Shown one piece after another: positions 14,989-35,267 of a stretch of 64,000 nt of DNA. How positions within the stretch are numbered: position 1 is the stretch's first letter; the number at the start of each line of letters is the position of its first letter. Under the pieces are notes generated by a model. The model was not told the origin of the DNA and made no database searches. It worked only from the letters and a program-made list of their open reading frames with translations. The DNA comes from Pyrinomonadaceae bacterium (GTDB lineage Bacteria; Acidobacteriota; Blastocatellia; Pyrinomonadales; Pyrinomonadaceae). Location of the stretch: positions 1-64,000 of the forward strand of contig JAIBCA010000074.1 of assembly GCA_019694345.1 (NCBI GenBank). Reading direction: 5' to 3'. A program made the translations under genes and the position numbers.

Positions 14989-15827
14989 CGGGGAACCTGG
15001 ACAAAAATGTCGTCGAGGGTTTTGGCGACGAGTGGACACGATTTGACCAGACCGGACTTTCGGCCTCTGAACTCGAGGCGATGTTTGACAATTATTTCAG
15101 CATTTTTCCGTGGGACGCATTGCCGCCGCATGCGGTCGGCTTCGATCTGGGCTGCGGCAGCGGACGTTGGGCAAGGCTGGTCGCGCCGCGTGTCGGCAAG
15201 CTGCACCTGATCGACCCGAGTGCGGCCCTGGACGTGGCCCGGCGCAACCTGGCCGGTGCTGATAATTGTGATAATTGTGAATTTCATCTGGCGGGCGTTG
15301 AGAATATACCGCTGGAGGACGGGTCGTGCGATTTCGGATACAGCCTCGGGGTTCTGCATCACGTGCCTGATACGCCGGCCGGCATTCGTGCCTGCGTTGA
15401 CAAACTAAAGCCGGGGGCGCCGTTTCTGGTCTATCTCTACTACCGTTTCGACAACCGGCCGGTGTGGTTCAGAGCTCTGTGGCGGGTGAGTGATATATTT
15501 CGCCGCGGCATCAGCCGTTTGCCGCATGGGGCGAGATTTGCGATCAGCCAGGTCATCGCGCTGTTGATCTATTGGCCGCTGGCACGCGCGGCAAAGATCG
15601 CCGAACGGTCGGGGATGAATGTCGAGCGGATGCCGTTGTCGCAGTATCGCGATAATAGCTTTTATACAATGCGTACGGACGCACTGGATCGGTTCGGCAC
15701 ACGCCTCGAAAAACGATTTACCAGGGCCGAGATCGCGGCGATGATGGACGACGCCGGGCTCGGTGATATCATTTTCAGCGACAGTTCATTTTGGACCGCT
15801 GTCGGATATAAGCGACGAGAATTATGA
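14985..15827 (+). CDS. Class I SAM-dependent methyltransferase
   Basis: A 280-residue protein with SAM-binding motif I (VGFDLGCGSGRWARL) at about residues 50-64, LIDPSAA at the end of strand 2 and SLGVLHHVPD as post-motif, the Methyltransf_11/25 pattern. It overlaps both neighbours by four bases (ATGA at 14985 and 15824), so translation of amidotransferase, methyltransferase and nucleotidyltransferase is coupled. By context it methylates a glycan precursor. The acceptor is unknown. Confidence 0.85.
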   Translation: MTGNLDKNVVEGFGDEWTRFDQTGLSASELEAMFDNYFSIFPWDALPPHAVGFDLGCGSGRWARLVAPRVGKLHLIDPSAALDVARRNLAGADNCDNCEFHLAGVENIPLEDGSCDFGYSLGVLHHVPDTPAGIRACVDKLKPGAPFLVYLYYRFDNRPVWFRALWRVSDIFRRGISRLPHGARFAISQVIALLIYWPLARAAKIAERSGMNVERMPLSQYRDNSFYTMRTDALDRFGTRLEKRFTRAEIAAMMDDAGLGDIIFSDSSFWTAVGYKRREL

Positions 15828-16552
15828 AAGGTGTAGTATTAGCAGGCGGGCTGGGCTCGCGTTTGAGCCCGCTGACGCGTATAACAAACAAGCATTTGCT
15901 GCCGGTCTATAACCAGCCGATGATCTATTACCCGATCAAGGCGCTGATCAATGCCGGTATCGACGACATAATGATCGTCACGGGCGGCAATTCGGCCGGC
16001 GATTTTCTCAAACTGTTGAGGAACGGCCGCGATTTTGGCCTCAAGCATCTCAACTATACCTATCAGGAGGGCGAGGGCGGCATCGCCGACGCGCTTGGCC
16101 TGGTCGAGCATTTTGCCGACGACGAACCGATCTGCGTCATACTCGGTGACAACATCATCGAGGGCAATATTCGCGCGGCCGCCGATGAATATCGCCGCCA
16201 GGGCAGCGGTGCCAAGATATTGCTCAAACGCGTGCCTGACCCGCAGCGTTTCGGCGTGCCCGAGCTCGACGGCGACCGCGTCGTCAATATCGAGGAAAAG
16301 CCGGCCGAGCCGAGATCGGACATGGCGGTGATCGGTATCTATTTTTATGACGCGACCGTTTTTGACGTGATCAAGACGCTTGTACCGTCGGGCCGCGGTG
16401 AACTCGAGATCACCGATGTCAACAACCATTACATCCGCCGGGGCGAGATGACCTGGAACGAACTCGACGGCTGGTGGACCGACGCCGGAACGTTCGAAAG
16501 CCTGCTGCTGGCATCAAATCTCGTGGCCAAGTCGGGGGCGAATAAAGTCTAG
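15824..16552 (+). CDS. rmlA: Glucose-1-phosphate thymidylyltransferase-like sugar nucleotidyltransferase
   Basis: A 242-residue GT-A-like pyrophosphorylase. It begins with the signature LAGGLGSRLSPLTRITNKHL and then PVYNQPMIYYPI, and has the metal-binding LGDNII near residue 107. These are typical of RmlA-type enzymes, which make dTDP-glucose from dTTP and glucose 1-phosphate. It is about 50 residues shorter than the proteobacterial tetrameric enzyme and matches the short form that lacks the C-terminal allosteric helices. With rmlB and rmlD at 57.6-59.5 kb and the RmlC-like gene at 17131 it would complete dTDP-rhamnose synthesis. Confidence 0.85.
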   Translation: MKGVVLAGGLGSRLSPLTRITNKHLLPVYNQPMIYYPIKALINAGIDDIMIVTGGNSAGDFLKLLRNGRDFGLKHLNYTYQEGEGGIADALGLVEHFADDEPICVILGDNIIEGNIRAAADEYRRQGSGAKILLKRVPDPQRFGVPELDGDRVVNIEEKPAEPRSDMAVIGIYFYDATVFDVIKTLVPSGRGELEITDVNNHYIRRGEMTWNELDGWWTDAGTFESLLLASNLVAKSGANKV

Positions 16553-16572: not shown

Positions 16573-16592
16573 TAACCGCAAAGTACGCCAAG
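16573..16592 (+). repeat. Left inverted repeat flanking the GxxExxY gene
   Basis: The 20-bp sequence TAACCGCAAAGTACGCCAAG matches the reverse complement of 17030-17049 at 18 of 20 positions. A second, weaker CGCAAAG-containing copy follows at 16598-16614 and is mirrored at about 17007-17025. Together they frame the gene at 16627-17004. Confidence 0.8.
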
Positions 16593-16626
16593 CGAATACC
16601 GCAAAGGCTCGCAGTGCGATGGAACG

Positions 16627-17004
16627 ATGAACGAAAATGATCTGTCCAACCTGGTGATCAATCGAGCGTTAAAGGTCCATACGGCTTTGGGACCGGGCCT
16701 TCTCGAATCTTCGTACAAGGAGTGTTTGTTTTACGAATTGCGGCAATCGGGTTTGTTTGTAGAGAAGGAAAAGGCGTTGCCCTTGGTTTACGGTGATGTC
16801 AAATTGGAATGCGGTTACAGGGTCGATCTTATGGTTGAACGAAAACTGGTCATTGAAACCAAGGCGGTTGAACTGATATCCGACATTTACATGGCACAAG
16901 TGCTCACATATCTCAGGTTGTCCGGATGTCGGCTCGGGTTGCTTTTGAATTTTAATGTGCGGTCGCTGAGGTCTGGTATCCGCCGCGTGGTCAATGGCCT
17001 GTGA
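16627..17004 (+). CDS. GxxExxY protein (PD-(D/E)xK-like)
   Basis: A 125-residue protein with GLLESSY at residues 24-30, the motif that names the family. RVDLMVERKLVIETKAV near residues 68-85 has Asp plus Glu-x-Lys spacing as in the PD-(D/E)xK nuclease fold to which the family is assigned. The biochemical role of GxxExxY proteins is not established. It sits between rmlA-like and rmlC-like genes but has no obvious role in glycan synthesis, and it is flanked by near-identical inverted repeats, which suggests a separately inserted unit. Confidence 0.9.
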   Translation: MNENDLSNLVINRALKVHTALGPGLLESSYKECLFYELRQSGLFVEKEKALPLVYGDVKLECGYRVDLMVERKLVIETKAVELISDIYMAQVLTYLRLSGCRLGLLLNFNVRSLRSGIRRVVNGL

Positions 17005-17029
17005 ACCTCTTTGCGGGCTTTGCGAAGAC

Positions 17030-17049
17030 CTTGGCGGCCTTTGCGGTTA
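17030..17049 (-). repeat. Right inverted repeat flanking the GxxExxY gene
   Basis: The reverse complement of this stretch reads TAACCGCAAAGGCCGCCAAG, differing from the left copy at 16573-16592 at two adjacent positions. The repeats point inward and lie 54 bp before and 45 bp beyond the gene ends measured from outer edges. Confidence 0.8.
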
Positions 17050-17130: not shown

Positions 17131-17607
17131 ATGAAATTTAAGGAATCTGATATTAAGGATGTTCTGGCCTATCCGCTGAAAAAGTTCCATGACGAGCGCG
17201 GGTGGTTGGCCGAGTTGTTCAGGCATGACGAGCTCGATGCCGAGTTTTATCCGGCGATGTCGTATATCTCGTACACACGGCCCGGCGTCCAGCGTGGGCC
17301 GCACGAACATGTGGACCAGGCCGATCTGTTTTGCTTTATCGGCCCCTCGACCTTTAAGATGATGCTGTGGGACAACCGCCCCGCTTCGCCGACCTATAAC
17401 CATATGATGACAATGTTTGTCGGTGTCGATGACCCGATGGCGGTCGTCGTGCCAAAGGGAGTTGTTCACGGGTATAAGAACGTCGGTGACGTCGATGGTA
17501 TGGTGATAAACTGTCCGAACAGGCTCTATATGGGCGAGGGCAAACGCGAGCCGATCGACGAGATACGGCATGAGGACGATCCGGATACGATATATCGAAT
17601 GGATTGA
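17131..17607 (+). CDS. RmlC-like cupin, dTDP-4-dehydrorhamnose 3,5-epimerase family
   Basis: A 158-residue cupin. The N-terminal FHDERGWLAELFRHDEL and the QRGPHEHVDQADLF segment near residues 52-66 correspond to the RmlC fold, with RGPH in the place of the catalytic-His strand RGLH of RmlC. It is about 20 residues shorter than typical RmlC. It may be the 3,5-epimerase for dTDP-rhamnose, or a related epimerase for another dTDP-keto sugar. The neighbours, rmlA-like upstream and glycosyltransferase downstream, fit nucleotide-sugar synthesis. Confidence 0.78.
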   Translation: MKFKESDIKDVLAYPLKKFHDERGWLAELFRHDELDAEFYPAMSYISYTRPGVQRGPHEHVDQADLFCFIGPSTFKMMLWDNRPASPTYNHMMTMFVGVDDPMAVVVPKGVVHGYKNVGDVDGMVINCPNRLYMGEGKREPIDEIRHEDDPDTIYRMD

Positions 17608-34813: not shown

Positions 34814-35267
34814 CAAACCGGGGACAATAAATGTTGCAAAGAAATCGGTGTCTGACATGATGTTATTAAGACGGTTTCTCGAGGCATCGGGTTGGGATCG
34901 ATGTTGACGGACAAGGAACTTGCTCATTGACAGCCGAAACCGTCATCTCCTTGCATATCGGCTGGAAACAGTGGTCGGCGGCAGGGTTGCGGAACGGAAG
35001 CGTGGGGCAGTAAGACTCAGGGCATTGTGGTGAACCTCTGGTTGATCGGCCTAACGGGTTGACGGTGCCCTTACTCCGTGCGGGCTTCCGCAATTGGTTC
35101 GAGTCATCGGAAAGCGGTCTTTTGATCCGGGTTATCGGCGTCCATCGGCGGTTAGATCCCCCTAACCGCAAAGGACGCAGAGGACCCATTCAATACTCAA
35201 TCTTCGATATTTACTACTCAATATTCACTTTTCCCTCGTCCCTTATCGCTTACTCTTTCGCCGGAGC
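34814..35267. other. Intergenic region with a dispersed-repeat copy
   Basis: No gene supported on either strand. The right part carries a copy of the repeat that flanks the GxxExxY gene (35163-35182) and an 8-bp perfect hairpin formed with it. The rest is of ordinary composition without clear promoters. Confidence 0.55.
35148..35182 (+). repeat. Third copy of the TAACCGCAAAG repeat, with hairpin
   Basis: TAACCGCAAAGGACGCAGAG at 35163-35182 matches the right GxxExxY-flanking repeat at 17 of 20 positions. Its first bases pair with GCGGTTAG at 35148-35155: CTAACCGC at 35162-35169 is the exact complement, leaving a six-base loop. Confidence 0.7.

Follow-up and report, generated by a model that had tools for sequence, protein, structure and literature searches.

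A GxxExxY gene between inverted heptamer arrays: a probable, undescribed family of small mobile cassettes

The window, a 64,000-nt stretch of contig JAIBCA010000074.1 from a Pyrinomonadaceae bacterium, was analysed around a small gene of the GxxExxY family. As a first-pass annotation had noted, this gene sits between two nucleotide-sugar genes, an rmlA-like one on the left and an rmlC-like one on the right (Table 1). The same annotation had described a 20-bp inverted repeat with 18 of 20 matches and an inner CGCAAAG pair. Both were found: the outer arms (16573–16592 and 17030–17049) are 90% complementary and 437 nt apart, and the inner pair lies at 16600–16606 and 17009–17015/17018–17024. What had been missed is the composition of the ends: four heptamers form an array on each side, the left one in the order CGCAAAG-2-CGCCAAG-7-CGCAAAG-3-CGCAGTG (numerals, spacer lengths in nt). 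The right array starts 4 nt past the GxxExxY stop codon. Within 80-bp flanks, the best inverted 20-mer match was 18 at this gene versus 10–15 for 142 random placements across the window. In the whole genome (3.5 Mb) there are three occurrences of CGCMAAGNNCGCMAAG, every one of them at this gene. The second GxxExxY gene of the same genome (L002) has ends of CGCGGAT/CGCAGAT type in an identical layout. Elsewhere in the window, at 35163–35183, a lone intergenic TAACCGCAAAG-GA-CGCAGAG array with no inverted partner nearby was observed, possibly a solo end.

Table 1. Features of the unit and its neighbours (window positions)
Feature	Position	Strand	Remarks
rmlA-like nucleotidyltransferase gene, left neighbour	15824..16552	+	insertion-junction marker, outside the element
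Left end array	16573..16616	+	layout TAACCGCAAAG-TA-CGCCAAG-CGAATAC-CGCAAAG-GCT-CGCAGTG; same layout in relatives
Left-array heptamers	16577, 16586, 16600, 16610		16610 degenerate (CGCAGTG)
GxxExxY gene	16627..17004	+	125 aa, predicted PD-(D/E)xK nuclease fold
Right end array, inverted	17009..17049	-	heptamers 17009, 17018, 17030, 17039; outer end GCGGTTA
rmlC-like cupin gene, right neighbour	17131..17607	+	outside the element

The identity of the gene product was borne out by two profiles, membership being a score above the curated cut-off along the full model: TIGR04256 (E 6e-40, 136.2 bits, cut-off 35) and PF13366 (E 1e-37, 129.4 bits, cut-off 22). To our knowledge, GxxExxY proteins have no agreed function. 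Outside subscription papers and preprints, the literature scarcely names them and never in this context, and the same search returned nothing relevant on CGCAAAG or ACCACAGAG repeats. They are common proteins, and several copies are present per genome within the genus of the window. Searches of PADLOC for defence systems, PHROGs, phages (for GxxExxY) and solved structures (by sequence) gave no match, and a plasmid search gave six distant GxxExxY matches. Pfam and NCBIfam returned PDDEXK_3/GxxExxY only, with neither an HUH/Y1 tyrosine transposase nor the known transposase domain of an insertion sequence.

In an alignment of 76 proteins, G22, G24, E27, Y30, D67, E77, K79 and Y95 are invariant and Q91 nearly so; the active-site set E27, D67, E77-x-K79 and Y95 is unchanged in 76/76. 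The structure model (pLDDT 96.3) agrees with the PD-(D/E)xK-type fold of the first-pass annotation. Its closest solved fold is the Cas4 protein SSO0001 (Z 10.3 over 100 residues, 3.5 Å); further Cas4s, lambda exonuclease and Hjc resolvases (Hjc Z about 6–7) are also among the matches. The E, D, ExK and QxxxY residues that define RecB/Cas4-type PD-(D/E)xK enzymes are placed in the expected fold in the model. Cysteines for an Fe-S cluster, a Cas4 feature, were absent from the invariant and nearly invariant columns of the 76 proteins. The constancy of the catalytic residues argues that a predicted nuclease activity is kept by selection.

Relatives were next compared at 80 GTDB loci, about 110 same-genus loci and 79 loci from the other genera of the class. 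For each gene, the upstream 150 bp was aligned to the reverse-complemented downstream 150 bp, an arm-to-arm score of at least 16 being counted as positive. Positive scores were obtained at 78% of 109 loci and at 81% of 80 same-genus loci, a set that partly overlaps the 109, and at 63% of the 79 class-wide loci outside the genus. Displaced control placements at the same loci yielded 0/503. End repeats are present around most other GxxExxY copies; at about 20–35% of loci, the 150-bp flanks contain no clear ends. Pairing the left flank of one locus with the right flank of another gave just 15% positives, which indicates that ends match each other within one cassette. Genomes carry many divergent GxxExxY copies with differing box types; the heptamer type varies among cassettes yet agrees between both ends of one.

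The pattern of conservation within the ends was examined in those 103 cassettes whose boxes are clear (consensus C-R-C-N-R-A-D, spacers mostly 2 nt). Arm-to-arm identity is 91% in box columns, 66% at position 4 of the box and, with some inflation by the choice of alignment, 58% in spacers. Box similarity is.878 within an arm,.894 between arms and.726 between cassettes. If the arms were kept for base-pairing, spacers and position 4 should be favoured too; if they were kept for recognition by a protein, this is not expected. The variation of spacers and position 4 between arms therefore argues for the boxes as candidate protein-binding sites, not an RNA stem.

Candidate reader residues were then sought by covariation. 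Among 101 proteins, H18 pairs with G at box position 7 in 81/81, and two further associations link residue 7 to box position 5 and residue 122 to box position 2. A held-out set again coupled H18 to G at box position 7 (23/23) and gave T7 with A at position 5 in 0/13. With a tree built without the tested columns, the top rank among 115 columns went to residues 7 and 8 together for box position 5, to residue 18 for position 7 and to residue 122 for position 2. This control has low power, there being two changes only for position 7, and five concordant and no discordant of eight supported pairs for position 5 (p about 0.06). Residues 7, 8 and 18 share one predicted helix (3–21) and residue 122 falls in the last strand of the model. 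Taken from sequence covariation, the link between residues 7/8, 18 and 122 and the boxes is suggestive.

The rmlA/rmlC-like junction was resolved in 26 congeners (L006 and L147 are one record, counted once). It is an insertion-tolerant site, empty in 16, occupied by GxxExxY in five (window included), by PF05635 in two and by other inserts in three. In empty relatives the rmlC-like cupin gene comes directly after the rmlA-like gene or overlaps it (as at L149–L151). Both PF05635 occupants comprise a four-helix-bundle ORF between inverted GAGTCTG arrays. GxxExxY also occupies this junction at L008, outside the genus set. At L154, L167 and L166, in other species, the junction holds other small ORFs (RelE/antitoxin-like, NYN-like by eye) or 333 bp of other repeats. 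Extra ORF-less CGCAAAG-type arm pairs are stacked beside GxxExxY at L153 (G008:C2), resembling local module amplification.

Empty sites, for which the first-pass annotation had suggested a test, exist at orthologous junctions. Among the sister species G002, G021 and G026, a second junction (flanks 83–93% identical) is empty and without arrays in G002, carries an ORF-less array pair in G021 and the full cassette in G026. A third junction bears the full cassette in G021 and G002 and an ORF-less module in G026, and one PF05635 cassette is present in G026 and absent from G021. That a single junction differs between sister species in this way, with gene, ends alone or nothing, speaks for a family of small mobile cassettes not described before. 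No target-site duplication was discernible at the compared junctions, where divergence is too high for exact insertion points, nor did any of the compared loci hold a recent copy at a new site. Close GxxExxY copies share flanks and are orthologous, near-identical copies at different sites were not found, and cassette activity is therefore slow or past. Most GxxExxY copies are old, inherited vertically over long periods. One candidate for a moved cassette, L097/L247, was dropped after a whole-genome search revealed an orthologous locus with differing module numbers.

Repeats that match the ends are also dispersed as ORF-less modules, intergenic arm pairs of 75–160 nt. These are of CACAGAG type in the genus and of CGCAAAG type in some genomes. 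For the CACAGAG type, 776 arrays were counted in 41 genomes and none with the reversed control pattern. The modules are short and non-coding, with terminal inverted repeats and presence/absence at orthologous sites, all features of MITEs. At L400 a CGCNGAT-type module is nested inside a CACAGAG-type one, whole modules flank the ORF on both sides at L097/L247, and the number of modules beside one orthologous cassette varies between sister species. An empty site for the L371 module was sought, with no clean case. Array number follows GxxExxY copy number with rho 0.75, a value uncorrected for genome relatedness and inclusive of the ends of the cassettes themselves; the partial correlation is 0.59 when genome size and PF05635 copies are controlled. 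When GxxExxY is controlled for, array number shows no correlation with PF05635 copies. CACAGAG-type arrays number 0–1 in three genomes that lack GxxExxY. The genome of the window has 11 CACAGAG-type matches, and its two GxxExxY cassettes use other box types. The first-pass annotation had asked whether such repeats also lie beside unrelated genes. The mobile reading survived this test, the genome having no CGCAAAG-type array besides that of the window unit, with the qualification that similar ORF-less arrays are found elsewhere and that G024 has 14 dispersed CGCAAAG arrays and no GxxExxY gene. In G024 (L259–L283), several CGCAAAG arrays are followed by CACGAAT arrays.

A parallel arrangement was observed for PF05635 genes. 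These lie outside rRNA and have their own inverted tandem-repeat arrays on both sides (L116–L145). Of 29 such cassettes in the genus, 76% have own end arrays, versus 0/105 controls; array types include AGTTACGG, AGTCTGG, GTGACGA and others. PF05635 copy number follows that of GxxExxY (rho 0.66). The boxes of the two cassette kinds differ, even at the shared rmlA/rmlC junction.

We propose, with a probability of roughly 0.6, a minimal cassette, mobile or mobilisable, in which a small Cas4/RecB-like nuclease gene lies between inverted box arrays that the nuclease reads, in a REP/RAYT-like manner. The encoded nuclease, probably a dimer or a larger oligomer, would bind the heptamer boxes, and its N-terminal helix (residues 7, 8 and 18) and C-terminal strand (residue 122) would read positions 5, 7 and 2 of the box. 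It could then cut the inverted ends, or hairpins formed from these. Cutting would mobilise the cassette that encodes the nuclease and, in trans, those ORF-less modules whose boxes match. The working would be analogous to that of RAYT/REP systems, with an unrelated enzyme, and apparently slow because most copies have been inherited vertically for long periods. The mobile cassette of the first-pass annotation thus holds in outline and is widened, having survived its three tests (ends at other copies, empty sites, repeats beside unrelated genes); binding and cutting we infer, and movement from comparison only. More tentatively, at somewhat under even odds, these units would form a new class of mobile DNA: self-contained cassettes that a standalone Cas4/Hjc-like nuclease moves by recognising cassette-specific tandem heptamer codes at either end, with non-autonomous modules as offshoots and a parallel four-helix-bundle class whose known special case would be the 23S rRNA intervening sequence (IVS).

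Other explanations were weighed against the same data. That the repeats are there by chance, or are unrelated to the gene they adjoin, would be arguable from one locus alone, where short repeats may arise by chance; the 0/503 controls against 78% of loci, and a window score far beyond random placements, leave this negligible. The gene could instead encode a domesticated host nuclease with a cellular or defence role, the arrays being binding or autoregulation sites and the junction variation reflecting loss, not movement. Long vertical inheritance, conserved flanks, invariant catalytic residues, boxes resembling protein-binding sites and the lack of recent copies at new sites among the loci compared would all suit such a role. 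It is nonetheless unlikely in view of the empty junctions, which are clean and have rmlA and rmlC frames that overlap, the ORF-less paired modules scattered intergenically and nested in one another, the many divergent copies per genome with differing box types and the absence of a PADLOC defence match.

An RNA-level element like the 23S IVS, whose ends would pair in the transcript as a stem around the ORF and serve processing or operon regulation while the DNA is immobile, would fit the placement of the window cassette within a co-directional gene cluster. It would also fit the Coxiella 23S IVS, which likewise has inverted tandem-heptamer ends beside a small ORF (PMC4990558). We regard it as very improbable: neither spacers nor box position 4 maintain complementarity, boxes of one arm resemble each other about as closely as they do those of the opposite arm, a stem needs no tandem box copies, and the modelled enzyme has a DNA-nuclease fold. 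Homing, by which GxxExxY would be a parasite inserted between the arms of older ORF-less paired arrays spread by another enzyme, draws on arrays that far outnumber cassettes, on the gene-free arrays of G024 and on the whole modules either side of the ORF at L097/L247. Against this, box family is tied to ORF family (GxxExxY versus four-helix bundle) even at the shared rmlA/rmlC junction, and it is the copy number of GxxExxY, not that of PF05635, with which array number goes, making homing an improbable account.

With a candidate nuclease, a readable heptamer code and junctions in empty, ORF-less and full states, GxxExxY function becomes directly testable. If the cassette reading is true, a large body of dispersed intergenic repeats would be explained and 23S rRNA intervening sequences placed in a wider family.

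Among known systems, Cas4/RecB-type and Hjc nucleases offer the closest solved folds and, in the model, the same E, D, ExK and QxxxY residues; unlike Cas4, the window protein is a 125-aa single domain without invariant Fe-S cysteines, and no cas1/cas2 neighbour is present at the locus. Bacterial MITEs resemble the ORF-less modules in size (about 75–160 nt), inverted ends, intergenic and nested placement and variable number. The modules differ in that their ends are cassette-specific box arrays, their partner gene encodes no known transposase and target duplication was not seen. REP elements with their REP-associated tyrosine transposases, the REPtrons/TIRtrons (PMC3733652), share a single small gene between inverted repeats, gene-less repeats in some genomes and, within the genus, dispersed non-autonomous repeats, the CGCAAAG-type array of the window unit being the sole one in its own genome. 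REPtrons, however, use an HUH tyrosine transposase and GTAG-tagged palindromes or plain inverted repeats, where a PD-(D/E)xK nuclease and tandem heptamer arrays are found here. As the HUH/Y1 transposase is absent, the window unit is no REPtron member, despite a similar working. The 23S IVS of Coxiella burnetii (about 430 nt) has one small ORF, S23p, and tandem heptameric repeats in its inverted ends (PMC4990558), like the window unit. It lies in the 23S rRNA gene, whereas the window unit lies between rmlA- and rmlC-like genes, encodes the unrelated GxxExxY protein and has another box family, with a box/spacer pattern that speaks against a stem as the selected feature. The PF05635 (S23p) cassettes of the genus share both the architecture and the rmlA/rmlC junction, and by this analogy the Coxiella 23S rRNA IVS looks like a described special case of the PF05635 cassette class.
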